The translations under genes and the position numbers were made by a program. Of a stretch of 64,000 nucleotides of DNA, positions 1 to 14,510 are shown one piece after another. The notes beneath the pieces were generated by a model that made no database searches, was not told the DNA's origin, and worked only from the letters and a program-made list of their open reading frames with translations. The DNA comes from a virus, in IMG/VR virus record IMGVR_UViG_3300046002_001345, positions 1 to 64,000 of that record; one strand, 5' to 3'. Each line of letters begins with the position of its first letter. Positions within the stretch are counted from its first letter, which is position 1.

Positions 1-2
1 GA

Positions 3-956
3 GGTGATAGAGAGCCGCGTGTTTGGAATATTGCAGATGACTATTGCGTAAATCAAGACTTGCTTGACCAACGCATTGGTGAAAAAATTCCTGTAGGTTT
101 GTTTGACAGCAAGTACAGAGGTTGGAGTGCCGAAGAAGTGTACGACGACCTAATGAAAAATGCTAAAAAGATCAGCATTGATGATTTAGAAAAAATGTTG
201 TTAGACGAACACTTAGATGGTGAAGGCGATGATGGCGAAGGCGATGGCGAAGGACAAAAAGATGGTAAAGGTCGTCCTAAGTTAACTGAAGAAGAAAAGA
301 AACAGATCCGTGACGAAATTAAAGAAGCTGTTATGGCTGCGGCACAGACTGTGGGTGCAGGTAATTTACCTAGCGGTGTTAAGCGTATGATTAAAGACCT
401 AACAGCACCTCAGTTGGATTGGCGTACTTTGTTACAACAACAAATTCAAAGTACTATGCGTACAGACTACACTTGGGCACGTGCGTCACGTAAAGGCTGG
501 GACATGGATGCTGTTATGCCAGGTAGTGATTGGGATAAAGAAATTGATATCTGTGTAACTGTTGATGCGTCAGGTAGTATGAGCGACGGTATGTTACGTG
601 ATATCTTAAGCGAAGTTAAAGGTATTATGGAAAGTTACACAAGTTTCCGACTACACTTGTGGAGTTTTGACACTGATGTATATAATGCTACTGTGTTTAC
701 TCCAGAAAACTTAGACGAAATTATGGATTGGGAAGTTGGCGGTGGTGGTGGTACTAGCTTTGAATGTAACTGGGAATTTATGCGTGATAACGACATTGTT
801 CCTAAGAAGTTTGTGATGTTTACAGATGGTTACCCAGGTGGTGGTTGGGGTGAAGAAGAATACTGTGATACATTGTTTATTATTCACGGTAGTACTACAA
901 TTGAAGCACCGTTTGGTATTACAGCTTACTACGAACTTAGCAAGGAGCATGCTTAA
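3..956 (+). CDS. VWA-like metallopeptidase-type protein (5' truncated)
   Basis: The reading frame is open to the left edge of the window, so the N-terminus is missing. The first visible residues (GDREPRVWNIADDYCVNQ) match the end of the putative metallopeptidase domain that precedes VWA-like domains of the DUF2201 type. A Gly/Asp/Glu-rich linker follows (about codons 70-90). The C-terminal half is a von Willebrand A-like fold with a MIDAS site: DASGSMS (DxSxS), the Thr of GGGGTS and the Asp of FTDGYPGG. Such proteins usually work with a MoxR-type AAA ATPase that would lie upstream, outside the window; that partner is inferred. The gene ends in an overlap (TAATG) with the next small gene. Role in the phage is unknown; metal-dependent binding or protein remodelling is likely. 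Confidence 0.75.
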   Translation, partial: GDREPRVWNIADDYCVNQDLLDQRIGEKIPVGLFDSKYRGWSAEEVYDDLMKNAKKISIDDLEKMLLDEHLDGEGDDGEGDGEGQKDGKGRPKLTEEEKKQIRDEIKEAVMAAAQTVGAGNLPSGVKRMIKDLTAPQLDWRTLLQQQIQSTMRTDYTWARASRKGWDMDAVMPGSDWDKEIDICVTVDASGSMSDGMLRDILSEVKGIMESYTSFRLHLWSFDTDVYNATVFTPENLDEIMDWEVGGGGGTSFECNWEFMRDNDIVPKKFVMFTDGYPGGGWGEEEYCDTLFIIHGSTTIEAPFGITAYYELSKEHA

Positions 957-1099
957 TGGATTCGACTTTACAATTTAGATTAGCTTGTATTTTTCTAGCG
1001 CAGGCGGAACAAGAACTACGTAAGGCCAATAACCCGTTGGCCAAAGAAATTAATCAATTCTTAGCGGGTGTACTTAAGGAGATGGAATCAAATGAGTGA
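956..1099 (+). CDS. Small hypothetical protein, 47 aa
   Basis: The ATG overlaps the stop of the VWA gene (TAATG), and the 3' end overlaps the start of the next gene, so it fits the coupled gene array. The 47-residue product is predicted mainly helical (LACIFLAQAEQELRKANN), with no signal peptide or known motif. A Shine-Dalgarno-like AAGGAG lies about 10 bases upstream of the ATG inside the VWA gene. Function unknown. The support is its tight packing and strand; no homology is claimed. Confidence 0.5.
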   Translation: MDSTLQFRLACIFLAQAEQELRKANNPLAKEINQFLAGVLKEMESNE

Positions 1100-1331
1100 A
1101 CAGGATAACAACGATGAAAACAAACCAATGAAAGTTGTTTTTGCACAAGGTTGCTTTGATGACTTTGATGGTACTCAAGAAGAGCTCGATGAACTAATTG
1201 CTCAGATTACCAACATGGCTGAGAGTGGTGAACTGTTAGATAATAGTGTACCTGTTGATGAGTTTCCGGAAATTGAGGATGAAGTACTAGAACTACTCCC
1301 AATGTTAACCAGTGGCAATACGAGGCACTAA
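1092..1331 (+). CDS. Small acidic hypothetical protein, 79 aa
   Basis: I place the start at the ATG at 1092 (MSEQDNNDEN), which has a strong AAGGAG ribosome site about 8 bases upstream, rather than the in-frame GTG at 1068. The product is very acidic, with a run of Asp/Glu through the centre (FDDFDGTQEELDELIAQI) and again near the C-terminus. It has no membrane segment or recognised catalytic motif. It overlaps the preceding 47-aa gene by 8 bases. Similar short acidic proteins are common in T4-like phages. Function unknown. Confidence 0.65.
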   Translation: MSEQDNNDENKPMKVVFAQGCFDDFDGTQEELDELIAQITNMAESGELLDNSVPVDEFPEIEDEVLELLPMLTSGNTRH

Positions 1332-1334
1332 ACT

Positions 1335-1541
1335 ATGAAACTATTTGGACGGTCCGGAGGGTATTGGTTATTTTGGATAAGTGTGCTGTATCTATCAGCA
1401 TGCATTGGTAATTGGTATGCGGTTCCTTGTGTTAGATATGAATATATTCAAATGGCATACGTTATTACATTAAGTTTACCATTATGGATTAGATCGTTAG
1501 CTGACTGGCTTAATATGAAAACAATCTGGGATATAGTATGA
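1335..1541 (+). CDS. Small membrane protein, 68 aa
   Basis: The 68-residue product has two hydrophobic stretches, roughly residues 10-30 (YWLFWISVLYLSACIG) and 40-53 (AYVITLSLPLWI), so it is likely a two-pass inner-membrane protein. The start follows the previous stop by three bases and the stop overlaps the next start by four (ATGA), placing it in the same transcript. No lysis-gene hallmark (holin-like charge pattern, paired spanin) is clear enough to call. Function unknown. Confidence 0.55.
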   Translation: MKLFGRSGGYWLFWISVLYLSACIGNWYAVPCVRYEYIQMAYVITLSLPLWIRSLADWLNMKTIWDIV

Positions 1542-1999
1542 GTGCAAGCCGTTTAAAAGACCAAAAAGACTTTGATTTAGAACAAATTGTGCGTGTAATT
1601 GACTCTGCACTAGAGTCAGACGATCAACGCATTAAAGACGCCTTACGTGCGCTTATGACTATAACTGTGCTGTGTACAGCAGAGCACCCTGATCAAGCGA
1701 TTAAAGGTCCGCTAGGTCGGTTACAAGAGGATTATAACAATCTAAGTCGTCGTTTAAGTAATGTAGAAGACGATGTACGTAAAATGCAATGGGATAATCA
1801 AAGCCGTCAAGTCGAGCCGTTTACTCCGCCTTACCAACCACCCACTAGTCCGTACGATCCACGTGTCTATCCTAACGATCCAACTAAGGTAAAGCCTATG
1901 TGGGAGTCAACATGGGGTGCAGGTGATGATCCCGGCTATAAAGGCGCAAGTTCCGGTATGCTTGCTGAAGACTTCATAAAAGAATTAGAGAAACGATAA
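1538..1999 (+). CDS. Hypothetical protein with coiled-coil segment, 153 aa
   Basis: The start overlaps the previous stop (ATGA). Residues 1-60 look helical, and residues 62-85 (LQEDYNNLSRRLSNVEDDVR) have a heptad-like pattern suggesting a short coiled coil. A Pro/Tyr-rich low-complexity linker follows (about residues 95-120) and then a short helical tail. No enzyme motif is visible. It may be an oligomeric accessory protein, but I do not recognise the family. Confidence 0.6.
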   Translation: MSASRLKDQKDFDLEQIVRVIDSALESDDQRIKDALRALMTITVLCTAEHPDQAIKGPLGRLQEDYNNLSRRLSNVEDDVRKMQWDNQSRQVEPFTPPYQPPTSPYDPRVYPNDPTKVKPMWESTWGAGDDPGYKGASSGMLAEDFIKELEKR

Positions 2000-2421
2000 T
2001 GCCAACATATTGGAATGCAATACAGAAAATTAAACGTGTAGAAGCTATGGCAAATAAGATGGGTTTTGAATTTTCCGCTGGCCGTGATCTCTACATAGAT
2101 AGTGGAGACTCTATTCACCTTATTCCCTTAGGTGATGCACTTCCGCACTACAGTCGTGGTGCTGAGATTTTTAGTGGGTCAGTTGAAGACATTGGCACGT
2201 GGTTAGAAGGTCTACAGTGGGCACGTAACTACGATGAGATGCTAAAACTTGGCAATGAAAAGAAACGTTCAGAACGTGAACAAGTTGAACGTAATCGACA
2301 ACTGTTGCAAATGGTTAAGACTGGCAAGAAAGTTGAAGGTAAAATTGGTCTTGATATAATACCCTACGAATTCGATGGGAGGGTTACTGCCCAAGAGTAC
2401 GAGGATGATATCCCATTTTAA
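1999..2421 (+). CDS. Hypothetical protein, 140 aa
   Basis: The start codon overlaps the previous stop (TAATG). The N-terminal 75 residues look globular (IQKIKRVEAMANKMGFEF, then GDSIHLIPLGDALPHYSR). A charged helix follows around residues 88-115 (EKKRSEREQVERNRQLLQMV), and the tail is acidic (QEYEDDIPF). It is the last gene before a strong promoter at 2422. It resembles small conserved proteins of T4-like aquatic phages by general look only. Function unknown. Confidence 0.6.
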   Translation: MPTYWNAIQKIKRVEAMANKMGFEFSAGRDLYIDSGDSIHLIPLGDALPHYSRGAEIFSGSVEDIGTWLEGLQWARNYDEMLKLGNEKKRSEREQVERNRQLLQMVKTGKKVEGKIGLDIIPYEFDGRVTAQEYEDDIPF

Positions 2422-2450
2422 TTGACTTTTTGGTAAATTGATAGTATAAT
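2422..2450 (+). promoter_or_regulatory. Strong sigma70-type promoter abutting a start codon
   Basis: The -35 box is TTGACT (2422-2427) and the -10 box is a perfect TATAAT (2445-2450), with the ideal 17-base spacer. Only seven bases separate the -10 box from the ATG at 2458, so the expected transcription start is on or one base before the start codon. No Shine-Dalgarno sequence fits between them. It should drive the 46-aa gene and those downstream. Confidence 0.8.
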
Positions 2451-2457
2451 TACTATA

Positions 2458-2598
2458 ATGAAACATGCAAAGAAAATTAAAATGAAGTTACGCAGTCACT
2501 ATGTTCTGTTCAACAAGGATTTGCCTTTTAAGGCCAAAGTAGAACGCGACCGTACCAAGTACACACGTAAATCTAAACACCGTAAGGACTTAGAATGA
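2458..2598 (+). CDS. Small basic protein, 46 aa (possible ArfA-like)
   Basis: This short, very basic protein is read from the promoter at 2422-2450, probably as a leaderless mRNA. The order of features LPFKAKVERDRTKYTRKSKH is loosely like the core of the bacterial ribosome-rescue factor ArfA (LFRQRV, then a Lys/Gly/Ser-Tyr-Arg-Lys basic tail). That likeness is weak pattern matching by eye over about 20 residues. Otherwise it is an unclassified basic phage protein. The stop overlaps the next start (ATGA). Confidence 0.55.
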   Translation: MKHAKKIKMKLRSHYVLFNKDLPFKAKVERDRTKYTRKSKHRKDLE

Positions 2599-2717
2599 AA
2601 TTAACACGCGAAGATATCTTAGCTATTGCTAAGAAACATTGCATGGAATACGTGCATGAAACATTCTTACTTCGATTTGTTGAAGAAATTATTAAAGCAG
2701 AATCTGCAAAGAAATAA
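2595..2717 (+). CDS. Small hypothetical protein, 40 aa
   Basis: It overlaps the previous gene by four bases (ATGA), and its stop overlaps the next start (TAATG). The 40-residue product (MKLTREDILAIAKKH at the start) is predicted all helical, with a hydrophobic centre and a Lys-rich end. Coupling to both neighbours is the main support. Function unknown. Confidence 0.5.
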   Translation: MKLTREDILAIAKKHCMEYVHETFLLRFVEEIIKAESAKK

Positions 2718-3100
2718 TGCACTACGATCTAGAAGATGACATCCGTGCCGCACCAGAACTAGTAGCTAAGATTAAATCGCGTGACGATTATGCGCAGAAC
2801 TTGTATGCAGCGTTCTGTAATATGCAGTGGCAAAAGACAGAAACATTTCCTATACTTAAAAATGATCTATGGTCAGTTAGCTGGCGTAGTGCGGGTGGCG
2901 TAGTAGCAGAAATACGCGGTCAAGGCGACTATATGGATTGGTACTGTAGTGGCATGGGCGGAATGGCCATATATGAATCTGATCGAGCGCAGGAAAATTG
3001 GATGACTACAAATAAATTTGTACCGGAAGCCACAGTAACAGAAGAAATACGCAACGATTTACATCAATTAGGATGGCACCCGGTGCCGTGGGAAGATTAG
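2717..3100 (+). CDS. Hypothetical phage protein, 127 aa
   Basis: The start overlaps the upstream stop. The sequence is rich in Trp and aromatic residues (MQWQKTETF, WSVSWRSAGG, DYMDWYCSGMGGM, LGWHPVPWED), with a conserved-looking Gly-rich turn in the middle. This pattern recalls a small protein widespread in marine T4-like phages whose role is not known. No membrane span or catalytic motif is visible. It belongs to the transcript started at 2422. Confidence 0.65.
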   Translation: MHYDLEDDIRAAPELVAKIKSRDDYAQNLYAAFCNMQWQKTETFPILKNDLWSVSWRSAGGVVAEIRGQGDYMDWYCSGMGGMAIYESDRAQENWMTTNKFVPEATVTEEIRNDLHQLGWHPVPWED

Positions 3101-3109
3101 GAGAAAGCA

Positions 3110-3460
3110 ATGTCAGTTTATCAAAGTTTTAGTTATAGTCCTACAGAGTTAGCAGAGCAAATGTCTAGTGCTACACACGACACACTTGCTTATCTATGGA
3201 AGTACAAATACATCACCACCGAACAGTATAATGAATTGTCGGGTAAAATAATGGTTATGGCTGTGCCAAACCGTAAAGGGTTTGGTAAGAAATTGTTAGA
3301 ATACTTCTTTGGTGATAACGCAGATGATAATGCTTGGGTATTTCCTATTGTAGAAGTATCAACACACTATAAATCTGCTATACCAGAAAAGCCAAAGAAT
3401 GTAACTAAACTTAATAGTAAACCTAAGTTAGAGGTTGTAGACAATGAAAAAACTACTTGA
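3110..3460 (+). CDS. Hypothetical protein, 116 aa
   Basis: A good ribosome site (GGAGAA) lies about 6 bases upstream of the ATG. The N-terminal 60 residues look helical (SPTELAEQMSSATHDTLAYL), followed by a segment with a conserved-looking NRKGFGKKLLEYFFG and a disordered Lys/Pro-rich tail. It ends within a region that overlaps the next gene. I do not recognise the family. Confidence 0.6.
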   Translation: MSVYQSFSYSPTELAEQMSSATHDTLAYLWKYKYITTEQYNELSGKIMVMAVPNRKGFGKKLLEYFFGDNADDNAWVFPIVEVSTHYKSAIPEKPKNVTKLNSKPKLEVVDNEKTT

Positions 3461-3477
3461 TCTATTACTATTTGGTC

Positions 3478-4104
3478 ATGAAAATACTAACCAATGGCTG
3501 TAGTTTTACAGCGCACAGCCCTTATCTAACTTGGCCATACTTGTTAGGCACTGATGCTGTTAAGAATATAGCACAGCATAGCGCAGGCAATCAATGGATA
3601 TGCAATAGTACTATTGCAGAACTATCAGAAAATTCTTACGATCTAGTATTAGTAATGTGGAGTGGGTTAGAACGCTTAGACTATACAGTAGAAGAAGCTG
3701 TGTATCTTAAGTCTACAGGATTCAAATCAGTTAATAACTTTGGCATACATTATCTACACAATGAACAAGATGCTTATAAAAATCTAAGCGTAGACACAGG
3801 GCAACGTGAACGTGTGTTTAATAGTTTAATGCAGATAATCAGTCTACAAAGTTATCTGCAAGCCCATAACATTAATTTTAAATTTATGAGCTATATGAAT
3901 TTTTGGGAAGATGTCTACAGGTTAGGATTTGAATATCTCGATCGTCAGATTGACTTCAGTCATTGGATATTTACTGATAATGATCGCAATGGCTTGTTCG
4001 AACTAAGTCAAGATAGTAAACTGTATATAGCAGATGGGTATCACCCTAATCAACAGGCGCATGAACAATGGGCAGAACTAGTCAGAAAGAATATTAATGC
4101 TTAA
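3478..4104 (+). CDS. SGNH/GDSL-type hydrolase, 208 aa
   Basis: The N-terminus MKILTNGCSFT has the block I nucleophile serine of SGNH hydrolases in a GCS variant of GDS. The C-terminus carries the paired Asp and His in DGYHPNQQAHEQW. Substrates of this family are esters on lipids or sugars; a glycan O-acyl ester is the likeliest guess here. I take the ATG at 3478 because motif block I starts there, although an in-frame TTG at 3457 is possible. It resembles five hydrolases in the minus-strand island but lies apart from them on the other strand. It overlaps the next gene by 8 bases. Confidence 0.7.
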   Translation: MKILTNGCSFTAHSPYLTWPYLLGTDAVKNIAQHSAGNQWICNSTIAELSENSYDLVLVMWSGLERLDYTVEEAVYLKSTGFKSVNNFGIHYLHNEQDAYKNLSVDTGQRERVFNSLMQIISLQSYLQAHNINFKFMSYMNFWEDVYRLGFEYLDRQIDFSHWIFTDNDRNGLFELSQDSKLYIADGYHPNQQAHEQWAELVRKNINA

Positions 4105-4369
4105 ACACGGTGAAGTTAATCCCTTAAATGTACACGGGCTTCGTGAGTTATCATGGTGCCCGCCTCACTTTGAACAAGTAAAGTTCGAATTGTGGGTTAC
4201 TGAAAAAATGATCAGCAGTTGGATCTACGAAAACCTAGTAGGTCGTTTTTATATAGGTCCCACTGATGACGGTGGCAAACGTCAGATCATGATAGGTTTT
4301 GAAATTGCCAGTGAAGCTACTTACTTTAGCCTATACCTTCCTCAGATTAATACCAACGATTACTTCTAA
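4097..4369 (+). CDS. Conserved phage hypothetical protein, 90 aa
   Basis: It overlaps the upstream hydrolase by 8 bases. The motifs WCPPHFEQVKFE, WIYENLVGRFYIG and the aromatic-rich C-terminus match a small family I associate with marine T4-like phages, where it is present but not characterised. The product has no membrane segment. A 62-base gap without a recognisable terminator follows. Confidence 0.65.
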   Translation: MLKHGEVNPLNVHGLRELSWCPPHFEQVKFELWVTEKMISSWIYENLVGRFYIGPTDDGGKRQIMIGFEIASEATYFSLYLPQINTNDYF

Positions 4370-4431
4370 GAAATTTTACCATCGGTCATTTAGTTGTTAA
4401 ATAAAATTGTCCCCTAAGGAGAATTTATTAA

Positions 4432-4671
4432 ATGGCGAAACAAGAACAACCACAAGAAACTACTGCTGAACAAGCACAAACTACAGCACCTAGTTTAACA
4501 CTACAAGATCTAGTGCTAGTTGCACAGATCATTCAAATTGGCAGTCAACGCGGCACATTCCGTGCTGAAGAATTAGCTGATGTTGGTACGTTATATACCA
4601 AACTTATCGCTTTCTTACAAGCGACTGGTGCATTAACACCAGCAAAAACCGAGGAAACTAAAAATGATTAA
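4432..4671 (+). CDS. Conserved phage hypothetical protein, 79 aa
   Basis: A strong ribosome site (AAGGAG) lies upstream of the ATG. A disordered Gln/Thr-rich N-terminus (about 20 residues) is followed by a helical domain (LVLVAQIIQIGSQRGTFRAE, then VGTLYTKLIAFLQATGA). The helical pattern with its RGxFRxEEL element resembles a small protein found in many T4-like aquatic phages, possibly a virion or assembly component. It overlaps the next gene by 8 bases. Confidence 0.65.
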   Translation: MAKQEQPQETTAEQAQTTAPSLTLQDLVLVAQIIQIGSQRGTFRAEELADVGTLYTKLIAFLQATGALTPAKTEETKND

Positions 4672-5365
4672 GCACGTTGGCAAACACAATCAACGCAAGA
4701 TCGCAATTGTATATCGTAAAGTACCAGATGAAGGTCATATGGCTCTAGTAATGTACACAGACAATCTACCAATGATGGTACATGATGAAGCTATGAAAGT
4801 ATTAGAAAGCGAAGTAGGTCAGAATGCTAAGGAATTAGCAGATGCTCTATTCCGTCATATTATGCCAGATGGTACTAACTGTCTACAGCATATTCACAAA
4901 GCTGGTTACCTAAAGAAAGTTCCGTGTAACCAAGTTATTGTTACCCCAACTGCAAAATCAACAGTACGTTTGGATGAATTAAATGACATTTTAGATAAAC
5001 TAGAAGCAGGTGGTGAAGCAGCGCAACGCTTAGATGACATTGATAAAAATCGTGGCATTAAAGGTGTTAAACAACAAGGCCGTGAACTTGGCATGCCTGC
5101 AGAACCGTTTACAGGTACCCCAACTACATCAGCCGACGTAGCAGGTGTATTAAGCGATTCTGAAATTGCTCAACAGCGCATTGGTCAAGCTACTCGTATG
5201 GAAGCAGAAGCTAAAGGTTTATTAGCAGAAGCAAAACGTCTTAAAGCAGAAGCAGCAAGTTTAAAACCTGCAACTGTTAAGAAAGCAACACCAGCCAAAG
5301 CTAAAACAATAACACCAAAGGCTACAGATGGCAGAGCAACCAAAACCAAAAAAGCCACAGCGTAA
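4664..5365 (+). CDS. Conserved phage protein with C-terminal coiled coil, 233 aa
   Basis: The N-terminal 90 residues form a conserved-looking domain (KHVGKHNQRKIAIVYRKVP; MVHDEAMKVLESEVGQNAKE; LFRHIMPDGTNCL) known to me from marine T4-like phages as an uncharacterised protein. Residues about 175-200 form an Ala/Glu/Lys-rich helix (QATRMEAEAKGLLAEAKRLK) likely to be coiled coil, followed by a Lys/Pro/Thr-rich tail. It overlaps both neighbours: 8 bases upstream and 38 bases downstream. A structural or assembly role is possible but not shown. Confidence 0.65.
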   Translation: MIKHVGKHNQRKIAIVYRKVPDEGHMALVMYTDNLPMMVHDEAMKVLESEVGQNAKELADALFRHIMPDGTNCLQHIHKAGYLKKVPCNQVIVTPTAKSTVRLDELNDILDKLEAGGEAAQRLDDIDKNRGIKGVKQQGRELGMPAEPFTGTPTTSADVAGVLSDSEIAQQRIGQATRMEAEAKGLLAEAKRLKAEAASLKPATVKKATPAKAKTITPKATDGRATKTKKATA

Positions 5366-5675
5366 GAATAGTAAGAAAATTACATTGAGCAAAAATAAAA
5401 GTTGGAAAGATATAGTCGAAGGGGTTGATAAGAAAGAAGTACCTATTCACATACTACAAGAAATTGAAGTAAAATTAATAGATGGCACTAATATCAGCAT
5501 TGACGTTAAAAGACTAATTGAAGATGGAATGGACCCAATAGCTATTGAGGAATTATTAGACCTTAAGTTTAATGAACTTGATGCTTATATTGATAACGTT
5601 GATTTCTTAATCGACATTGCTAAAGTGGTAGATACTATCCAACCAGAAACAGACAAGGTACTTAAAGGTCTATGA
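5328..5675 (+). CDS. Conserved phage hypothetical protein, 115 aa
   Basis: A Lys-rich N-terminus (about 28 residues) precedes a compact domain with a repeated acidic pattern (VPIHILQEIEVKLIDGTNIS, then DAYIDNVDFLIDIAKVVDTI). This arrangement is common in T4-like myophages without known function. The long 38-base overlap with the upstream gene and the four-base ATGA overlap with the reductase gene suggest coupled translation. Confidence 0.65.
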   Translation: MAEQPKPKKPQRKNSKKITLSKNKSWKDIVEGVDKKEVPIHILQEIEVKLIDGTNISIDVKRLIEDGMDPIAIEELLDLKFNELDAYIDNVDFLIDIAKVVDTIQPETDKVLKGL

Positions 5676-6169
5676 TTTGTTCAATTCTCGCTAGCACTTC
5701 CCTAGGGGGCATAGGCAATCGTGGTACATTGCCTTGGCCAAAACATAAAGAGGATCTTTCCTGGTTTAAAGAACATACTACTAATCAAATTGTAGTTATG
5801 GGACGTAACACTTGGGAGGATCCAATGATGCCCAAACCCTTACCTAATCGCATTAACTATGTAGTCAGCAGTCGTCACGTGGCTAAAGAATACCAACATC
5901 AGGTACGTTGGATTCCTGGCAATCCTGTAGATGCTATTAAAGAAATACAAAAGGCCAACTCAAAACAAGATGTATACATCATTGGTGGTCAGAAATTATA
6001 TGAAGCCACTGACAATATAGTAGAACGTGTGTACTTAACACGTATGAAAGGCAATTATTGGTGCGACACCCGTATTAACTTAGAACGATATCTAAGCTGT
6101 TTTCGTATTATGACTGTCCGTCCGGGCACTAATTGTACCTACGAAATATGGGATCGTGTACTTTTTTAG
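5672..6169 (+). CDS. frd: Dihydrofolate reductase
   Basis: This enzyme reduces dihydrofolate to tetrahydrofolate with NADPH, regenerating the cofactor used up by thymidylate synthase, encoded just downstream. Family motifs are present in order: GGIGNRGTLPWP near residue 12 (substrate and cofactor loop), VVMGRNTWE near residue 43 (NADPH site) and VYIIGGQKLYE near residue 107. The length, 165 residues, is normal. The start overlaps the previous stop (ATGA). T4 also pairs frd with its thymidylate synthase gene. Here a separate promoter lies between them. Confidence 0.93.
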   Translation: MICSILASTSLGGIGNRGTLPWPKHKEDLSWFKEHTTNQIVVMGRNTWEDPMMPKPLPNRINYVVSSRHVAKEYQHQVRWIPGNPVDAIKEIQKANSKQDVYIIGGQKLYEATDNIVERVYLTRMKGNYWCDTRINLERYLSCFRIMTVRPGTNCTYEIWDRVLF

Positions 6170-6170
6170 G

Positions 6171-6199
6171 TTGACAAACCATAGCATATCTGCTATAAT
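6171..6199 (+). promoter_or_regulatory. Consensus sigma70 promoter abutting thyA
   Basis: A perfect -35 TTGACA (6171-6176) and a perfect -10 TATAAT (6194-6199) are separated by exactly 17 bases. Six bases separate the -10 box from the ATG at 6206, so the predicted first transcribed base is the A of the start codon. There is no Shine-Dalgarno sequence. Together this implies a leaderless thymidylate synthase mRNA read by host RNA polymerase. Confidence 0.88.
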
Positions 6200-6205
6200 A
6201 ATACA

Positions 6206-7084
6206 ATGAAAACTTATCTCAATTCTCTAAAATTTGTTTTAGACAACGGCACTGTACGAGAAGATCGTACAGGCACAGGTACTATTGGCGTGTTTGGCAT
6301 GCAATCACGCTATGATCTAAGCAAATCCTTCCCCGCAGTTACTACTAAGAAACTTGCATTCAAAGCCTGCTTAAGTGAACTATTATGGTTTATCGAAGGC
6401 AGTGGCGATGAACGTAGACTAGCAGAAATACTATACGGTGATAAACTTGAACACCGTAAAACTATCTGGACTGATAATGCTCTGTCTAAATATTGGATTT
6501 CTAAATCTAAATATCAAGGCGACCTAGGTCGGGTGTATGGAGTACAGTGGCGCCATTGGCGTACACAATTAAAGCGTTGGATTAGTTCAAGCGAAAGCGA
6601 ACCTGTAGAAGTTGATCAACTATTACAGTTAATAGAAGGCATCAAACAAGACCCATACGGTCGCAGACATATCCTAACAGCATGGAACCCAGGCGAGTTA
6701 GATCAAATGGCCCTACCTCCATGTCATTGTTTTGCACAGTTTTACGTAAGTGCAGATAATAAGCTGTCGTGTCAAATGTATCAGCGATCATGCGATATGT
6801 TTTTAGGAGTTCCTTTTAACATAGCATCCTACAGCCTGCTAACGCATATGGTGGCCCAAGTGTGTGGCCTTGGGGTAGGCGAGTTTGTTCATGTACTTGG
6901 TGATGCACACATATATTTGAATCATGTAGATCAGGTAAAAGAACAACTTTCACGTGAGCCCTTACCTGCACCACAACTTTGGATTAACCCAGCAGTTACA
7001 GATATTACTAAATTTACTATGGAAGACTTTAGACTAGATGGATACCAAAGCCTTGCACCAATCAAAGCCCCAATGGCGGTATGA
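6206..7084 (+). CDS. thyA: Thymidylate synthase (ThyA type)
   Basis: The enzyme methylates dUMP to dTMP using methylene-tetrahydrofolate. Visible motifs include EDRTGTGTIGVFG near residue 20, the active-site segment LPPCHCFAQFY with the catalytic Cys173, the phosphate-binding YGRRH (Arg153/154), DMFLGVPFNIASYSLL, and GDAHIYLNHVDQ. The length of 292 residues is usual for the family. The gene sits directly on a consensus promoter with no leader and follows frd, completing a thymidylate cycle module. The last 47 bases overlap the next gene in another frame. Confidence 0.95.
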   Translation: MKTYLNSLKFVLDNGTVREDRTGTGTIGVFGMQSRYDLSKSFPAVTTKKLAFKACLSELLWFIEGSGDERRLAEILYGDKLEHRKTIWTDNALSKYWISKSKYQGDLGRVYGVQWRHWRTQLKRWISSSESEPVEVDQLLQLIEGIKQDPYGRRHILTAWNPGELDQMALPPCHCFAQFYVSADNKLSCQMYQRSCDMFLGVPFNIASYSLLTHMVAQVCGLGVGEFVHVLGDAHIYLNHVDQVKEQLSREPLPAPQLWINPAVTDITKFTMEDFRLDGYQSLAPIKAPMAV

Positions 7085-7361
7085 ACGCCCCCACCGTGTA
7101 CGCTTCTTTGTAGATAGTATACACGCCAATGACGCTACCCGTAAACATGCCAATGAACTCTATTGGGATATGGCTAAGAAGTTTAGTCTAACTCCTGTAT
7201 ATCAATGGGTGGAAGAAAATGGTATTGACCTACAGTATACCGTAGATGATCGTGCGCAGGATTGGCACAAACAGATTAGATTCTACGGTGACTTGACAGA
7301 AGCACAATATGTAGACTATGCACTTAGATTTTTCGATCATTATAACGAGGCATGGAAATGA
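7038..7361 (+). CDS. Hypothetical protein, 107 aa
   Basis: It starts inside the 3' end of thyA, and its stop overlaps the next start. The product (RPHRVRFFVDSIHANDATRK, then WHKQIRFYGDLTEAQYVDYA) is rich in aromatic and charged residues and looks globular. The exact start is uncertain: the ATG at 7038 lacks a ribosome site, and an in-frame TTG at 7053 is possible. No family recognised. Confidence 0.6.
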   Translation: MDTKALHQSKPQWRYERPHRVRFFVDSIHANDATRKHANELYWDMAKKFSLTPVYQWVEENGIDLQYTVDDRAQDWHKQIRFYGDLTEAQYVDYALRFFDHYNEAWK

Positions 7362-8014
7362 AAATATATAAAAACAAATACAAAGACCATTGGTTAAGCC
7401 CTTACACAATTTGTGAAAAGATTTGTTTTTGGCGCGAAATCGATTACGATGAGCCTTGGGTTGTACGTGTTAACAAAGTACTAAGCCCTGTATGCAACCT
7501 GTGGCGTAACTTCTTAGATATTGTAGATCCTAAGATTGATTATGTTAAGATCGACCAATGGGACACCTGGTCAATGGACAGTACACTAAGTCCTATCATC
7601 CTACCTATGCTTAAGCAACTTAAAGAAAGTAAGCATGGTGCACCATGGACAGACGACGAAGATGTACCGGCACGCTTACGTAGCACAACCAAAGCGGCAA
7701 TCAAAAGTAAAAAGAATTCATGGGATACTGACTGCAATCATTTCAAACGCTGGGATTGGATCATGTCTGAAATGATCTGGGCGTTTGAACAACTGTGTGA
7801 CGAAGACTCAGATGCACAGTTCCACACCGGTGAAACGGATATTGAATGGAAAGTAAGTGAAGAGGATGCTAATGGCAAACCTCTACTATGGGAAATGGCC
7901 AAGGGTCCTAAAGACACTCGCAAGTTTGACAAGAAAGGTTACATGAAACATCACGAACGTCTACGTAACGGTACACGCTTATTTGGCAAGTACTATCAAA
8001 ACCTTTGGGATTAA
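7358..8014 (+). CDS. Conserved phage hypothetical protein, 218 aa
   Basis: I choose the second ATG (7358) because GAGG lies at a better distance from it than from the ATG at 7352. The segment DQWDTWSMDSTLSPIILPML, followed by LKESKHGAP and DDEDVP, is a recurrent signature of an uncharacterised protein in T4-like aquatic phages. The sequence is soluble and rich in Trp, Lys and Asp. Its start overlaps the previous stop. Function unknown. Confidence 0.7.
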   Translation: MKIYKNKYKDHWLSPYTICEKICFWREIDYDEPWVVRVNKVLSPVCNLWRNFLDIVDPKIDYVKIDQWDTWSMDSTLSPIILPMLKQLKESKHGAPWTDDEDVPARLRSTTKAAIKSKKNSWDTDCNHFKRWDWIMSEMIWAFEQLCDEDSDAQFHTGETDIEWKVSEEDANGKPLLWEMAKGPKDTRKFDKKGYMKHHERLRNGTRLFGKYYQNLWD

Positions 8015-8024
8015 GGAGAATACT

Positions 8025-8186
8025 ATGGCATCACTTAAAGACTTAGTTAAGCAAGCACTAGAAAAGAAACAAGCAGAACAACACGGTGTTAACACAGATC
8101 TTACTGTTGATACTGGCAAAGGTGCACCTAAAGGTAAAGTAACATCAAATAAACCTGCTAAGAAATCAGCCGGAAGAGGACGTTAA
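8025..8186 (+). CDS. Small basic hypothetical protein, 53 aa
   Basis: The start at 8025 (MASLKDLVKQAL) has a strong AAGGAG ribosome site 7 bases upstream, which favours it over the in-frame upstream start at 7983. A helical N-terminus is followed by a disordered Lys/Gly-rich tail ending SAGRGR. Its stop overlaps the epimerase start (TAATG). Function unknown. Confidence 0.65.
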   Translation: MASLKDLVKQALEKKQAEQHGVNTDLTVDTGKGAPKGKVTSNKPAKKSAGRGR

Positions 8187-9151
8187 TGAAATACTTAATC
8201 ACAGGTGGTGCTGGCTTTATCGGGCACAATGTTGCACGTTTCTTAGAAGCCCAAGGACATGAATGTATTGTTGTAGATACATTTACTAACTACGGTTTTA
8301 TTCCTACTAACGAAATTACCTATCTATCTTCTAATAGACAAAAACGCTACATCAGCGAAACATATAAAGTTGACATACGTGATCAACAGAGATTGAACAG
8401 CCTGTTTGATACTAATCAACCAGATGTGATTATACATATGGCTAGCTTTCCTCGTCAGAAAGTAGTTGAACAAGATCCTGCACTAGCCAGTGAAGTAATG
8501 AGCACAGGTCTTATCAACTTATTAGAGTTAGGTAAAAAGCATAAGGTTAAGAAGTTTGTGTATATTAGTTCTAGTATGGTTTATGGTGATTTTACTACTG
8601 ACGTGACTGAATCAGCTCAATGTAATCCGCAAGGACAATACGGTATTATGAAGTATATGGGCGAGAAACTTGTAGAAGACTATAGTCGACGCGGTTGTTT
8701 CAATCACGTTATCATTCGCCCAAGTGCTGTATATGGTGAGTGGGACGTTGAGGATCGTGTGGTAAGTAAGTTTGTTACTAAAGCCATGCGTGGCGAAACA
8801 CTAAAAGTAAATGGTCCCGACGAAGTATTAGACTTTACCTATGTAGAAGATACTGCAATGGGCATTGTACTTGCTGCAACTAAAGATATCGCCAATGGTA
8901 ATATCTATAATATTACACGTAGTGAAGACCGTCAATGGACCCTTAAAGATGCTGCAGAACTTGCAGTTAAAATTGCAGGTCAAGGCACATTAGAAATAGC
9001 ACCCCGTGATTTAAGTTTCCCTAAGCGTGGTCGTTTAGATATTACACGTGCTGTAAAGGATTTAGGTTATAACCCGCAGGTTAATGTTGAAGAAGGATTC
9101 CGTAGATACTACGAATGGTATAATCAAAATCCTGTTCTTTGGCGCAAATAA
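8186..9151 (+). CDS. NAD-dependent sugar epimerase/dehydratase (extended SDR)
   Basis: This is a nucleotide-sugar epimerase or dehydratase of the extended short-chain dehydrogenase family. The Rossmann motif GGAGFIG (residues 7-13), the acidic cofactor-binding VVDT, an active-site SSSMVYG, the catalytic pair in YGIMK, and RPSAVYG in the substrate lobe are all present. Length is 321 residues. The exact sugar cannot be read from sequence; the UDP-glucose 4-epimerase or GDP-mannose dehydratase groups are the nearest relatives in outline. It ends base-to-base against the minus-strand sugar/radical SAM island and may supply a sugar precursor to it (inference). Confidence 0.85.
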   Translation: MKYLITGGAGFIGHNVARFLEAQGHECIVVDTFTNYGFIPTNEITYLSSNRQKRYISETYKVDIRDQQRLNSLFDTNQPDVIIHMASFPRQKVVEQDPALASEVMSTGLINLLELGKKHKVKKFVYISSSMVYGDFTTDVTESAQCNPQGQYGIMKYMGEKLVEDYSRRGCFNHVIIRPSAVYGEWDVEDRVVSKFVTKAMRGETLKVNGPDEVLDFTYVEDTAMGIVLAATKDIANGNIYNITRSEDRQWTLKDAAELAVKIAGQGTLEIAPRDLSFPKRGRLDITRAVKDLGYNPQVNVEEGFRRYYEWYNQNPVLWRK

Positions 9152-10459
9152 TTAATATTTAGAATTGTAATAATCTTTTAACCAGGTCCAATCGTAGGTT
9201 AACATTAACTTATCATAATTGCCATCGACTTGTTCGTAGTATTCTTTGGCATCTTTAGACCCTAAGATGCTCCATTCTGCGTTTAACCCTTCTGCTTCAT
9301 TTAGCCAAGTATCTAAACGGTATTGACTTTCTATACTGTTAGTTTTCTTAACGTCATCAATTAACTTAATAACTTCTCTAAAAGCAGTACGCCAGGTCAT
9401 TAAGGGATCTGAATTGTAATACGCAGTACCGCTGGATATAGGAACTACTTCGTGTGGTTGACTTAGAGTAAAATCAAGATCTGTAGTTTCAGTTGCTAAT
9501 ACCAATCGCTTATTATACGCAACCATGGCCATATGCCCGTATCGTAATCCATTTAGCGGATTATCAGCATAAAAAATATAATGTTTAGGCTCTTGTAAAT
9601 AGTCAGGTTGCCAAGACCAATCAAACTCCGGATTAACTTTAAGTTTAGCTGGTACTTTAAAGAACCATTCCGTATCACTCATCTCTGCAGCAACTTTGAA
9701 TGCGTTGTCTCTACCATTGATATTCTGCACACGTTTAACCTTCTGGTTAGAGGAGGTAGATAAGTGTTCATATAGCTGATCAGCATTTGTCTCACCGTTG
9801 CTGATATAGATAATATCAAGATTTTTATCGCCTAAAAACCAGTCTTTTTGCTTCAAAACATACGGATAATCATAGATTTGATGCTTTAAATGTGCGGAAA
9901 TTTCACGGGGTACTAACGATACGCTGTTTGCTCTGTTAAAGGTGTGTACACTTCGGTCTCGCCATAATATAGGCGCAAAGTTTATAGTAGTATCTATATC
10001 ACGTTTGAACAGTACATATGGTGTGTCGAACTTAGTAGCCTTAACTACGTCTATTAGATCATCGCCGGTATACGTTACAGTAGGGGGAGTTAAGCGTGAT
10101 ACCCCTGGGTAATGCCAATTAACTTCCTTATACCATTCTAATAAAGGTATGTCCTTTTGTTGCTCAAACTCACTCACGTTAACTAAGAATGTGTCACCAA
10201 ACTTTTCGTGATCGCTGTGCCAGCAGTGTAGTTGATAGGCTTCCCATGGAACAGGCTTATAGTCAAAATCAAAATTACTGTAGTCACAAACACTTGATAT
10301 CACCCAAGCGTAAGGGGTTCTACAACGTGAAATACAGCGTTTTAACGTGTCTAAGTGATTATCGTAGTATCTTACCACACGAGCATGCGGAAAGCGTAGT
10401 ACAAGGTCTTGTACATTAGCGTCATTGCCGCCCATGTCCATGATGAAGATATCAAACAT
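9152..10459 (-). CDS. Glycosyltransferase-like protein with tandem degenerate GT-A-like modules, 435 aa
   Basis: Two copies of a GT-A-like half-domain can be lined up by eye, about residues 1-90 and 215-300: hydrophobic strand, Asn/Asp-rich turn, RV, Ala-rich helix, then a strand where a DxD metal site would sit. The related protein at 25833-26732 has IDGDN there; both copies here do not (SSVCDYS and KVPAKLK). Later segments PLNGLRYGH and MTWRTAFREV also match that paralogue. It may be catalytically altered or bind sugars only. It is the last gene of the island and overlaps dCMP deaminase by 8 bases. Confidence 0.55.
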   Translation of the reverse strand: MFDIFIMDMGGNDANVQDLVLRFPHARVVRYYDNHLDTLKRCISRCRTPYAWVISSVCDYSNFDFDYKPVPWEAYQLHCWHSDHEKFGDTFLVNVSEFEQQKDIPLLEWYKEVNWHYPGVSRLTPPTVTYTGDDLIDVVKATKFDTPYVLFKRDIDTTINFAPILWRDRSVHTFNRANSVSLVPREISAHLKHQIYDYPYVLKQKDWFLGDKNLDIIYISNGETNADQLYEHLSTSSNQKVKRVQNINGRDNAFKVAAEMSDTEWFFKVPAKLKVNPEFDWSWQPDYLQEPKHYIFYADNPLNGLRYGHMAMVAYNKRLVLATETTDLDFTLSQPHEVVPISSGTAYYNSDPLMTWRTAFREVIKLIDDVKKTNSIESQYRLDTWLNEAEGLNAEWSILGSKDAKEYYEQVDGNYDKLMLTYDWTWLKDYYNSKY

Positions 10460-10874
10460 CTAGTTGTTCTACTTGGATGCCGGAATTACGAAGAAAAGTG
10501 ATCCCACTATCATCCCTGTAATTAATTGCGTAGTAGACATGCTTAATACCTGATTGATAAATGAGTTTGGCGCAATCGAGGCAAGGACTATGTGTAACAA
10601 ATAAAGTTGCATCGAGGCCAGACTCACTACTCCTAGCGAGTTTCGCAATAGCGTTCGTTTCTGCATGTAATACCTCCGGTTTAGTTTTAATAGTTCCATC
10701 TTCTAATTCAAGTTCACAATTGTTATCCCACCCTGCTGGCATCCCATTGTAACCAATTGATATAATTCTGTCATCTTTGACAATAAGGGCTCCCACTTTA
10801 AGTCTACGTGCTGTGCTTAAATTACTGTAGATGTGTGCGGCCCGCATGTGTGCTGTTTGATACTTAGGCTTCAT
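10452..10874 (-). CDS. cd: dCMP deaminase
   Basis: The enzyme deaminates dCMP to dUMP, feeding the thymidylate synthase encoded at 6206. The zinc-site motifs are HAETNA (His70, catalytic Glu72) and PCLDC (Cys98, Cys101), numbered from the chosen start. That start is the ATG at 10874 (MKPKYQTAHM), which has an AGGAA ribosome site about 9 bases upstream; an in-frame start at 10901 would add nine residues lying inside the upstream gene. Length is 140 residues. It lies at the far end of the sugar/radical SAM island, so its position may be incidental. Confidence 0.92.
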   Translation of the reverse strand: MKPKYQTAHMRAAHIYSNLSTARRLKVGALIVKDDRIISIGYNGMPAGWDNNCELELEDGTIKTKPEVLHAETNAIAKLARSSESGLDATLFVTHSPCLDCAKLIYQSGIKHVYYAINYRDDSGITFLRNSGIQVEQLDV

Positions 10875-11301
10875 TATAATAATTCCTAAATTGATCTGCA
10901 ATTACCCGAGTCCAGGGCATTGCGTCTAATTCTCTTATGTGATAATTGTAATGAGTAGGGGCTTCAAATATCTTATTAGTATCTGCATACCGACTTGTTG
11001 TAATTGTGTCCATCCAAACTACAATATCCGGGTTAAAGATATTTCTAAGTTTATGTGTAGGACAAACAAAGTCTGCTACTACAATGTTATTCATAGTCTC
11101 TGCATTGCGAGCAAACCTGGCCATACGTTCTGCTTGTCGAATTCGCCCTTCTTCTGAAAAGTCCCAATCGTTAAATGCTTCACGCATCCGATCAGCATTA
11201 AACCACTCAACACTACGACCAACTGCTTTGATATCTTCTACTAGTTTTTTTGCAAAGGTACTTTTACCACTGCCAGGTAATCCCATTACTAGAATTCTCA
11301 T
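10864..11301 (-). CDS. P-loop kinase, adenylylsulfate-kinase-like
   Basis: The N-terminus has a classic Walker A loop (GLPGSGKST, residues 7-15). FNADRMREAFNDWDFSEEGR followed by an Arg-rich helix matches the substrate-binding part of APS kinase (CysC family), as do IVVWMDTI and NKIFEAP in the C-terminal half. CysC makes PAPS, the donor for sulfation. At 145 residues it is shorter than bacterial CysC, and no sulfotransferase is obvious nearby, so a different small kinase substrate is possible. It overlaps neighbours on both sides. Confidence 0.65.
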   Translation of the reverse strand: MRILVMGLPGSGKSTFAKKLVEDIKAVGRSVEWFNADRMREAFNDWDFSEEGRIRQAERMARFARNAETMNNIVVADFVCPTHKLRNIFNPDIVVWMDTITTSRYADTNKIFEAPTHYNYHIRELDAMPWTRVIADQFRNYYNEA

Positions 11302-12110
11302 TTGAAGTCCTTGTCTTTATATTTGTCCCAATACTCTTTTGGATTAGTATATTTTAACATAAAATCTTCAGGATTGCAATATTGCAGATTAAAATCATAT
11401 GCTAGTTGCCTATGCCAATCAATGCCAAAATGTGCACCGTCACGAGCTTTAGTCCATGCCACTGTATTATATACAGTACGCACTGTATCATCCCAGTTAA
11501 TGCTTAATAATTTAAACTTATAAACTTCCTGTAGTAGCTGTAAGATTGTTTTATTTTTTGTTTGATTGTTATAGGCCGTATTATCTTCGTATTGTAGATT
11601 ATCCTCTTCCATAGTCCATGCACCATTAAACACAGCACCGTTCTCGTATGTTTCAAATCTAAATAGACTTGGCCACATGACTGCTACAATTGAAGGTTTA
11701 ATAATAGGAATTAGGTTAACTGCCAATCTGGCCACAGTATCAGCGCCGGCGCCACCCAGTCCTGCATTGTAAACACTATAATCAGGAAAATAATCACGAC
11801 CAAATTGTTCCGGCCAATTATCCTGTTGTGGAACTCCTACTCCAACAGTATGACTACAGCCGAACGTAAGAATTATAGGATTCATTCCATTGAGATCAAA
11901 TTCGCAACTTCTGAAACCGTGTGAATTATATTTGTAGGTAAAACTATCAGCACGCCAATTTGGATGTCCTTGGTGTCTAGTCCCTTGTATATTATTAAAT
12001 CGTTCTTCACTGTCTAAATCAGACAGGCTAAACGCCATCTCTTGATCACGGGGGTATGTGCCAAGATCTAATGTACTACCTAAAGCCCAGTAATTATTTT
12101 GAGTTGTCAT
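11298..12110 (-). CDS. SGNH-type hydrolase, 270 aa
   Basis: The block I motif is LTFGCSHTVGVG with the nucleophile at about Ser86. The Gly and Asn of the oxyanion hole may lie in NAGLGGAGADT, and the C-terminal DGAHFGIDWH supplies Asp and His. An N-terminal extension of about 75 residues (with SFTYKYNSHGFRS) is longer than in the other hydrolases of this island. It is coupled to its neighbours by short overlaps. Likely an esterase or acyl-transfer enzyme acting on a glycan; the substrate is unknown. Confidence 0.65.
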   Translation of the reverse strand: MTTQNNYWALGSTLDLGTYPRDQEMAFSLSDLDSEERFNNIQGTRHQGHPNWRADSFTYKYNSHGFRSCEFDLNGMNPIILTFGCSHTVGVGVPQQDNWPEQFGRDYFPDYSVYNAGLGGAGADTVARLAVNLIPIIKPSIVAVMWPSLFRFETYENGAVFNGAWTMEEDNLQYEDNTAYNNQTKNKTILQLLQEVYKFKLLSINWDDTVRTVYNTVAWTKARDGAHFGIDWHRQLAYDFNLQYCNPEDFMLKYTNPKEYWDKYKDKDFK

Positions 12111-13017
12111 TTTTAATTTTGCGCTTTAACACGTTTTCTTTTGATTGAGGGAACCAATGTATATTTTGCTCACGTCCGTTCGGACATACATCACATTCGG
12201 GTATTGGTTGAGCTTCAGTACGTTCAAAATAATCTATATCTTCTTGGGTTGCAGTTTTTAAATCGATCGGTTTATAATTTAAATATTTTTGCCAGTCCGG
12301 GTCATCTAACTGATTAGTTTCTGTTAGTACTTTAGGCAATGCTAATAACCTAGGGCATTTGTATAGTTTACTGTCTATGGCCGCCGCACAAAACGGACTA
12401 ATACATCCTATCTTAAAGGAACCATCTGGGTCGTTAGTAGCAAAAGGTTTTATTTTACCACCGACCATTTTAAACTGTGCTTTAAATCCGTGTTCATGAA
12501 ACGTATGCAACATAAAATCAATCTTATTATCAGGAATATCATAATGCATATCATGTATCTTGTGTATACGGGGATGACTTAAAAAATATTTTAAATTTTC
12601 ATAATATTTTTGTGCTTCTTTACTATCTGCAAATCCTGCCAAATGATCATCAATTGATAAACGTATATTACCCACTTCTAAAAATAAATCAACGATGTCG
12701 TCTCTAAATTTGTGTATCAGTAATGCATTTGTACTAATATTAATAATTGAATTTGGAAAAAGTTTTCTAACATGCCGTGCCATAGGTACTACTTTTTCAT
12801 GCCAATACAGTGTAGGTTCACCGCCGACTAATGTAATCATATTAGTAACATCGTCGACATAGTTAGCAAAATTAGAAATAGTTTCTAAAATACTTTCTAT
12901 ACTTGGGTCGTAGTCTTTATGAAAAATAATGTCCGAACCACTATTGCACCCCTTACAGGCCAGGTTGCATTTAAACCCATAATAAAAATTCATTATTTGA
13001 AGTTTAATTTTTTTCAT
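12094..13017 (-). CDS. Radical SAM protein with C-terminal SPASM/twitch-like cysteines, 307 aa
   Basis: The SAM-binding [4Fe-4S] motif CNLACKGC (Cys17, 21, 24) lies near the N-terminus, and GGEP (65-68) is the SAM amino-group contact. Downstream cysteines 205, 210, 221, 275 and 278 (including KCP and ECDVCP) look like an auxiliary cluster of the SPASM or twitch kind, here at the C-terminus. It differs from the other five radical SAM proteins of the island, whose extra cysteines precede the core. It overlaps the carbamoyltransferase by four bases (ATGA). Substrate unknown. Confidence 0.85.
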   Translation of the reverse strand: MKKIKLQIMNFYYGFKCNLACKGCNSGSDIIFHKDYDPSIESILETISNFANYVDDVTNMITLVGGEPTLYWHEKVVPMARHVRKLFPNSIINISTNALLIHKFRDDIVDLFLEVGNIRLSIDDHLAGFADSKEAQKYYENLKYFLSHPRIHKIHDMHYDIPDNKIDFMLHTFHEHGFKAQFKMVGGKIKPFATNDPDGSFKIGCISPFCAAAIDSKLYKCPRLLALPKVLTETNQLDDPDWQKYLNYKPIDLKTATQEDIDYFERTEAQPIPECDVCPNGREQNIHWFPQSKENVLKRKIKNDNSK

Positions 13018-14510
13018 GAGCAGACTTTAACCCCGTATAACTGTTCAAATCGATCTGCGTCTGCACGATCGTTAACCATTGGTTCGCCACGGATGTTTAA
13101 ACTAGTATTAAGTAGCATAGGACACCCCGTCCACGTAAACCACTGCTCTAAGAGTTGTCTAATTCCTGAGCCATCATTTGGCACAGTTTGTACTCGACTT
13201 GTTCCGTCAACATGTACAATAGCAGGAAACAGATCAGGATGCTTACAGCGAGCTACGGTCTGCATATAAGGGCTACGATCCCACCCAACAGGCATATCGA
13301 AGTATTCGTGTACTAGCTCTTCGAGTATAACTGGTGCAAATGGTCTAAACTTTTGTCTACGTTTAATTTCATTTACAGTATCCTTGATCTCGGGTCCTCT
13401 AGGGTCTGCTAATAAACTACGATTACCAAGGGCTCGCGGACCAAATTCAGCCCGCCCACTCGCCACGCCACAAATCTTATTTGTGGTTAACTCGGAAATG
13501 ATACTTTTAGTAGGGTAAGGACCACCAATATCGTAGCCAAGGAAAGCGTCTTTCCAAACCAATCTTCTGCCCACTGCCATTGCAGCCGCGCCAAGGCTAG
13601 ACCCAGCATCGCCGGGATTAGGCATAATCCAAATGTTATCAAAGTATCCCCCTAATATTTTATTTGCACTACAGTTAAGTGCTACACCACCACAATAGAC
13701 TAAATTACTGTTTGGTGCTAAGTCGCTGGCCTTCATCATAATTGTTGCTATTAAATCTTCTGTAAGTTCTTGTGCAGCTCTGGCAGTGTCTTCATCTGAC
13801 CAGTTACCTTTGATTTTGCCCGGTAGGCCAATGTGTAGGTTATGTTTAAAGATCATTGCTACTTCATCTTCTATTAGACTAGCTTTAAGATTATCTGCCT
13901 GAAACCAATTTGGTGCTCTGCCCCATCCAGCCATACCCATCAAGATATATTCTTCATCTAGAGGTTTAAGCCCCACACTTTTAGTAAACGCACTGTACAT
14001 CAATCCAATACTGTGTGGGTATTTTTGTCCCCAAACTTTATTGTACTGTGCATAGCCTTGTTCGTCGTAGTGTGCTGACCAAATACTAATAGTATCCCAT
14101 TCACCAATGGCATCAATGACTACCACAGTGGCTGTGTCAAAGGTACTTGTTTGAAATCCCGCTGCCGCATGACTAAGGTGATGATTATATGATTTAATAG
14201 GTAGCTTATGTAGGTTAAAATCAGGTAGCTGTTCTTTTATTAATCCCTTAACAGTCCACGGAGTTTTAAGTTCACTATACTGGCCAGCATACAGTTGACG
14301 AGTCTTTTTAACCCACGGACGCTCATAGTAGGCAATACTGTCTATAGGGCCGTACTTAAGTGCGTCTTTAATCAGTTTAGGATGTAAGTTACTGTCGTGT
14401 TTACGTTTGCTGTAGCGTTCGCTATGCCCAGCAAATAAGATCTGACCTTGGTCGTTGATTAATGTTACAGCGGCATCATGGAAGCCGGCCGATATACCTA
14501 AGATGTTCAT
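13014..14510 (-). CDS. Carbamoyltransferase (NodU/CmcH family)
   Basis: Enzymes of this family transfer a carbamoyl group from carbamoyl phosphate, through carbamoyl-AMP, to hydroxyls of sugars or natural products. The N-terminal Kae1-like half begins GISAGFHDAAV and carries the metal-binding NHHLSHAAAGF; VVIDAIGEWD, CGGVALNCSAN, GDAGSSLGAA, EFGPRALGNRS and the C-terminal block KFRPFAPVI follow in the usual order. Length of 498 residues is slightly short of typical. It sits among radical SAM, SGNH and glycosyltransferase genes, so a carbamoylated sugar is the likely product. Confidence 0.9.
   Translation of the reverse strand: MNILGISAGFHDAAVTLINDQGQILFAGHSERYSKRKHDSNLHPKLIKDALKYGPIDSIAYYERPWVKKTRQLYAGQYSELKTPWTVKGLIKEQLPDFNLHKLPIKSYNHHLSHAAAGFQTSTFDTATVVVIDAIGEWDTISIWSAHYDEQGYAQYNKVWGQKYPHSIGLMYSAFTKSVGLKPLDEEYILMGMAGWGRAPNWFQADNLKASLIEDEVAMIFKHNLHIGLPGKIKGNWSDEDTARAAQELTEDLIATIMMKASDLAPNSNLVYCGGVALNCSANKILGGYFDNIWIMPNPGDAGSSLGAAAMAVGRRLVWKDAFLGYDIGGPYPTKSIISELTTNKICGVASGRAEFGPRALGNRSLLADPRGPEIKDTVNEIKRRQKFRPFAPVILEELVHEYFDMPVGWDRSPYMQTVARCKHPDLFPAIVHVDGTSRVQTVPNDGSGIRQLLEQWFTWTGCPMLLNTSLNIRGEPMVNDRADADRFEQLYGVKVCS

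Follow-up and report, generated by a model that had tools for sequence, protein, structure and literature searches.

A sigma70-like promoter fused to a start codon and a predicted leaderless mRNA format in large environmental phages

In a stretch of environmental virus DNA, a sigma70-like promoter lies seven bases ahead of the ATG of a 46-aa DUF7230 gene, an arrangement predicted to yield a leaderless mRNA. It appears to represent one format of a conserved two-format scheme, and we place the probability of this reading at roughly 85%. The window, that is, the whole stretch analysed, comprises bases 1–64000 of the 67,488-base record IMGVR_UViG_3300046002_001345. As read from sequence, four lines of evidence directly support the scheme: promoter architecture, spacing statistics, conservation and coding from the first ATG.

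Under this scheme, a transcript from the host-type promoter would begin on the AUG of the 46-aa gene or one base earlier, 70S ribosomes would presumably bind the 5′-terminal AUG without further steps, and an overlapping 40-aa ORF would then be translated by coupling. The same promoter type would occur in two formats: leaderless, with the ATG 6–7 bases past the −10 element and no SD sequence, and leadered, with the ATG about 24–37 bases past it and mostly with an SD. Particular genes (thyA, dnaJ, an 88–89-aa family and others) would be held in the leaderless format.

The promoter at 2422–2450 and the 46-aa gene

The layout described in the sequence-only reading, TTGACT-17-TATAAT-7-ATG with no ribosome site, proved exact by direct reading and by a pattern search of the whole record. 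The features are as follows.

2422–2427, + strand: −35 element TTGACT (direct reading and pattern search; TTGAC in 14/14 loci with the 46-aa gene)
2445–2450, + strand: −10 element TATAAT, 17 bp past the −35 element (direct reading, pattern search, 14-locus comparison)
2457–2458, + strand: predicted transcription start, the 7th or 8th base past the −10 element by sigma70 geometry
2458–2598, + strand: 46-aa gene (DUF7230) with candidate leaderless start ATG (ORF list, Pfam, coding constraint on codons 2–8)
2595–2717, + strand: 40-aa ORF whose ATG overlaps the stop codon of the 46-aa gene; the two probably share an mRNA
6171–6199, + strand: second fused promoter, TTGACA-17-TATAAT (pattern search)
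6206–7084, + strand: thyA (thymidylate synthase) with candidate leaderless start ATG (ORF list, relatives' upstream regions)

The seven bases separating TATAAT from the ATG at 2458 read TACTATA (2451–2457). There was no SD match of at least 3 bases ahead of this ATG, nor ahead of the first ATG in any of the 14 loci with the gene. Sigma70 polymerase begins about 7 bases past the −10 element. By this geometry, transcripts would start on the A of the ATG at an offset of 6, and on the A or one base earlier at an offset of 7.

Across the whole 67,488-base record the fused pattern matched twice, at 2422 and 6171, both on the + strand, with 0 matches on the other strand and 0 for a reversed control pattern. 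The −35 element at 2422 directly follows the TAA of an upstream 140-aa ORF (1999–2421). In positions 1–20000 we found 79 promoter-like matches against a shuffle mean of 65.4, so weak matches mean nothing; the 2422 promoter scored 11/12, and just two listed matches in this interval equal or exceed that score. A second TATAAT (2454–2459) overlaps the ATG and forms a 10/12 site with TTGGTA, from which a transcript would begin past the ATG. It is missing from most relatives, so we treated it as incidental and rejected it as the main −10 element. An Rfam search of 1900–7200 gave no match, a tRNA search found none in the window, and megablast of 1–8000 against phage records returned no match.

Relatives were gathered through the neighbouring 140-aa gene (9 loci), thyA (80 loci kept) and alignment of the 46-aa protein (13 loci). 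The loci with the 46-aa gene are the window plus 13 found, and three pairs among these 14 are alike in the stretch shown. TTGAC-17-TATAAT stands ahead of the ATG in all 14, at a distance of 7 in nine loci and 9 in five; at the latter spacing the transcript would carry a leader of about 3 bases.

The 46-aa gene encodes a small, basic protein. It matched Pfam DUF7230 (PF23876) over residues 24–44 with 27.2 bits, barely reaching the gathering cut-off of 27, and phrog_6310 with E 4.9e-07, both being families of unknown function. Relatives of the 40-aa ORF come after the 46-aa homologue in L004/L005, L049, L037 and L047; given this and the stop/ATG overlap, both ORFs probably lie on one polycistronic mRNA and would be translated in a coupled fashion. 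In the homologue at L049:788–928, the LPFKAKVERD stretch, conserved otherwise, is interrupted by one additional residue. Nearer the start of the window, a VWA/DUF2201 protein (60–956) is reported from an internal TTG, and its 5′ end may fall outside the window; its relatives in contigs G008 and G009 are leadered genes.

Distances from the −10 element to the ATG

We surveyed eight contigs of related phages, up to 329 kb long (the window's record, G001, G002, G004, G005, G008, G009 and G012) for TTGAC, a spacer of 16–18 and TATAAT. Among the 168 promoters obtained, in which orthologous sites are not independent observations, the ATG lay at 6 bases in 21 and at 7 in eight. None lay at 8 and 14 in total at 8–17, many of these 14 being the second ATG of a gene that has another start. 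A second, broad mode occupied about 24–37 bases, mostly with an SD. Neither peak was seen for 2182 TATAAT hexamers without an upstream TTGAC. A survey of this spacing had been named in the sequence-only reading as a refuting test, and the excess was present: 29 ATGs at 6–7 against 6.7 in 500 shuffles (sd 2.5, maximum 16). Non-ATG starts were not enriched there (GTG, TTG and CTG at 1, 5 and 0 of the 168 promoters). All 29 sites have a 17-bp spacer, each contig contributes 2 to 6 of them, and at 25 promoters the ATG at 6–7 opens an ORF of at least 25 aa.

Similar distributions came from other starting points. Measured from 1792 simply called ORFs, the distances were 6 in 30 cases, 7 in seven, 8 in none, 9 in four and 10–17 in six. 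With a relaxed −10 element (5/6), there were 41 candidates at offsets 5–8, of which 37 had no SD match and four a 3-base match, while 135 of 146 leadered sites had an SD of at least 3 bases. Predicted folding at the 5′ end of leaderless genes (−2.2 kcal/mol) was weaker than in internal stretches of the same genes (−4.3 kcal/mol, p = 3e-5); the difference from leadered genes (−2.8 kcal/mol) was not significant (p = 0.065). The near-empty gap between the two modes fits the idea that a short leader with no SD would be the worst of both. The leaderless design proposed in the sequence-only reading is, as a prediction from sequence, strongly supported by the spacing statistics and conservation. Its word 'deliberately' is justified only if taken to mean conservation of the format. 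As a whole that reading is partly supported, its 'early or middle' timing being so far a conjecture.

At seven of the 168 promoters an ATG directly follows the −10 element (offset 0). These were not counted as leaderless because every one of the seven has a later ATG with an ORF. The same arrangement (TATAATATG) recurs in G018 (6 rows) and G028 (3 rows), where the geometry bars a leaderless start. On the − strand of G002 (C1:223199–232365), a run of promoters carries near-identical SD-led leaders (CACTTACACTAACA...GGAGAAACA) ahead of successive genes, as if a single leader had been copied; this is possibly an early region.

Six named phages served as a control: RaK2, CBB, Munch, XbC2 and Phosso, in which TTGAC-16/18-TATAAT promoters stand ahead of ATGs, and T4, which has no match to this pattern. 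Of the 71 matches listed, counted without removing duplicates, six have their first ATG at 6–7, and one of the six opens an ORF of at least 25 aa. That candidate, CBB 334643 (151 aa), has a further in-frame ATG 21 bases downstream, led by an SD. The 15 of 71 places with small offsets were examined in sequence. Further possible cases are Munch 268006 (offset 4, 117 aa), Munch 237673 (offset 3, 56 aa), Munch 325297 (offset 12, 67 aa) and RaK2 213518 (offset 3, 38 aa). For a host background we used 17 bacterial genomes with close bS21 relatives (23 listed rows). The first ATG lay at 6–7 in four rows. Two of these open a real ORF, one of 80 aa and one of 167 aa that reaches the end of the fetched sequence, and the other two frames are 22 aa and 6 aa long. 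The leaderless-type background in bS21-bearing hosts is small, not zero, and the numbers are too thin for a histogram.

We also scanned IMG/VR with TTGACA-17-TATAAT-n-ATGAAA, using gaps of 6 and 11 bases, scans that can be compared in make-up and not in numbers. At the 6-base gap, 94 of the 121 unique sites among the matches listed open an ORF of at least 50 aa or run off the contig, and 88 of those 94 have neither an SD of their own nor an internal SD-led start. At the 11-base gap, the 112 unique sites among the matches listed gave a corresponding ORF count of 44, with 12 SD-free. Families recurring at offset 6 among the matches listed were exonuclease-like (6), thyA (2) and, assigned by reading translations, dCMP-deaminase-like (3) and DNA-ligase-like (3). 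Contigs G021, G017 and G022, picked for having one site at 6–7, have 5, 4 and 3 judged by spacing. The scan suggests that many viral contigs carry leaderless-type architecture.

Gene families in the leaderless format

The sequence-only reading had linked the 46-aa gene to thyA, correctly: thyA in the same window has TTGACA-17-TATAAT-6-ATG (6171–6208). By a fixed rule, a fused promoter was present in 26 of 63 distinct thyA upstream regions, with the ATG at 6 in 24 and at 7 in two. It was found in 19 of 26 regions where the thyA protein is at least 73% identical to the window's, and in 7 of 37 for the rest. An SD of at least 4 bases occurred in 0/26 regions with the fused promoter and 3/37 of the others.

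Counting leaderless contigs among contigs with a match, we found dnaJ leaderless in 4/4, down to 40% identity, an 88–89-aa family in 4/4, a 79–84-aa family in 3/3 and a CHASE2/cyclase protein in 2/2. For thyA the count was 6/8 survey contigs, and for the 46-aa gene 2/3, the third being at offset 9. NUDIX (3/5), exonuclease (3/6, leadered in G008) and kinase-like (2/8) families were mixed, four further families were leaderless in 1/2 or 1/3, and the remaining leaderless candidates matched themselves only. By these counts, some families hold to the leaderless format and others switch.

Ten leaderless families were compared against Pfam; they gave NUDIX, PD-(D/E)XK, CHASE2 plus cyclase, NT5C (below cut-off), DnaJ, 5′-3′ exonuclease, UvdE and APS-kinase-like matches, and two had no match. 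Ten leadered proteins, selected from the longer ones in G008 and G009, gave DNA ligase, cell-wall hydrolase, LlaJI-like (below cut-off), DUF2201 twice, PTPS and NT5C, with three unmatched. Since NT5C-type proteins appear in both groups, a split of leaderless and leadered genes by function is suggestive only. The CHASE2 plus adenylate/guanylate cyclase protein occurs in two large phages (L099:5697–7703 and L130:1801–3822) and is leaderless in both; the Pfam match is that of the L099 copy.

Alternative explanations and known systems

The −35 element begins at the upstream stop codon at both the 46-aa gene and thyA (at thyA, one base past the preceding stop), and at 15 of 25 leaderless promoters the stop of an upstream ORF falls within −12 to +6 of the −35 element. 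Such tight packing would be expected if genome compaction had squeezed promoters between abutting genes, leader loss being a by-product with no translational meaning. Leadered promoters are equally tight by the same measure (53/98), yet they retain SD-bearing leaders of about 30 bases, and very few distances fall between the two modes. We rejected compaction as the sole cause because of these equally tight leadered promoters, and consider the explanation unlikely.

The genes sit in co-directional series, as would suit main translation from longer read-through transcripts with the fused promoter playing a minor part. This is quite improbable given a near-consensus promoter at fixed spacing, the use of AUG only and the lack of an SD to serve a long transcript.

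The true start of the 46-aa gene might instead be codon 9, a second in-frame ATG (2482) kept in 14/14 loci and lying 31 or 33 bases past the −10 element. In the window the offset of 31 falls inside the leadered mode, with a leader of about 24 bases, and 13 of the 14 loci have a 3-base SD-like match ahead of codon 9. Profile position 15–16 of the Pfam and PHROG families aligns to residue 24–25, so that the family start may be at about residue 9–10. Codons 2–8, however, vary mostly at third positions: in the larger homologue set, 72 differences fell at third positions and 35 each at first and second positions. Mean BLOSUM62 for changed codons was 2.06 in this frame and −0.22 and −0.13 in the other two. 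With seven homologues only, the pattern in codons 2–9 was less clear: 11 changes were synonymous and 16 were not, and third, second and first positions differed 22, 18 and 17 times. The third-position-biased, conservative change in codons 2–8 indicates that the first ATG (2458) is translated, and on this pattern in the larger set we rejected codon 9. Its SD-like match is, moreover, just 3 bases long and is missing in L474, and a start there cannot account for thyA, dnaJ and the other leaderless genes; we judge it very unlikely. Chance resemblance in AT-rich DNA, where promoter-like strings are common (79 against 65.4 expected in 20 kb), is refuted by the conservation and the spike at 6–7.

Leaderless transcription from the fused promoter, the reading we prefer, has relatives among known systems. 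Leaderless mRNAs, with lambda cI as the model, have an AUG at or near the 5′ end, no SD and 70S entry, and are called rare in enterobacteria (PMC9031893). The genes here are similar in that the AUG would be at or near the predicted 5′ end, as deduced from the −10 position, with no SD; they differ in forming a conserved class in lytic-type gene sets, beside an SD class with the same promoter. In the Thermus phage phiYS40, also a large phage, most middle and late transcripts are leaderless (PMC3594737). Many genes would likewise be leaderless here, as predicted from sequence (29/168 near-consensus promoters at 6–7), but the promoters are of the host type (TTGACA/TATAAT), both formats would come from that one type, and the hosts are probably proteobacterial. 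In Deinococcus-Thermus, a −10 element directly ahead of an ORF gives a leaderless mRNA (PMC12340547). The adjoining −10 is shared, whereas those are cellular genes of another phylum and here a near-consensus −35 element stands at 17 bp in 29/29 strict sites, partly by construction of the search. Phage transcripts have been described as 'often leaderless', yet AR9 leaders measure 26–491 nt (PMC5312081). Among named large phages, the nearest thyA relatives are 54–60% identical to the window's.

A start-site survey of E. coli reported 18 leaderless mRNAs with 3,746 start sites mapped (PMC3415461). About one-sixth of the near-consensus promoters here lie at the leaderless distance (29/168) against those 18, although the denominators differ in kind. 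Among the titles listed by our literature searches, none describes a conserved leaderless class in large environmental phages, which is weak evidence of absence. Leaderless mRNA itself is known; what would be new is that one promoter type comes in two discrete formats, with the leaderless one conserved gene by gene. A single genome in which leaderless and SD-led genes share a promoter would offer a natural side-by-side comparison for studying why some genes take the leaderless form. There are consequences for annotation too: start callers dependent on an SD may overlook leaderless genes or put their starts in the wrong place.

More tentatively, the phages might use the same host promoters to feed two channels of translation, one for SD-led genes and one for a purposely leaderless set that stays translatable when initiation changes. 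On this doubtful but conceivable reading, the leaderless set would be rich in DNA and nucleotide metabolism (thyA, 5′-3′ exonuclease, UV endonuclease, dCMP-deaminase-like). The change would be one in SD- or 30S-dependent initiation, for example through a phage-encoded bS21 entering the host ribosome, and the leaderless genes would form a translational regulon selected by ribosome state. The bS21 loci are:

G008:C1:99929–100084 (L166): phage-encoded bS21
G005:C1:4530–4685: phage-encoded bS21
G010:C1:14097–14249: phage-encoded bS21

As an explanation of the leaderless class bS21 led nowhere, being present in 3 of 11 records, most of the 11 being fragments; IF3_C had no match in the 11 records. 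A bS21-bearing lake phage group has been assigned to Bacteroidetes (PMC9723584). The bS21 of G008 matched 34 loci in bacterial genomes, and its closest bacterial matches were betaproteobacterial genes. By their titles and general taxonomy, 18 of the 34 are from Betaproteobacteria, 6 are assignable to Proteobacteria/Pseudomonadota only and 10, weaker matches, are from Rhizobiaceae. This hint from a relative's bS21 suggests that the host is probably proteobacterial.
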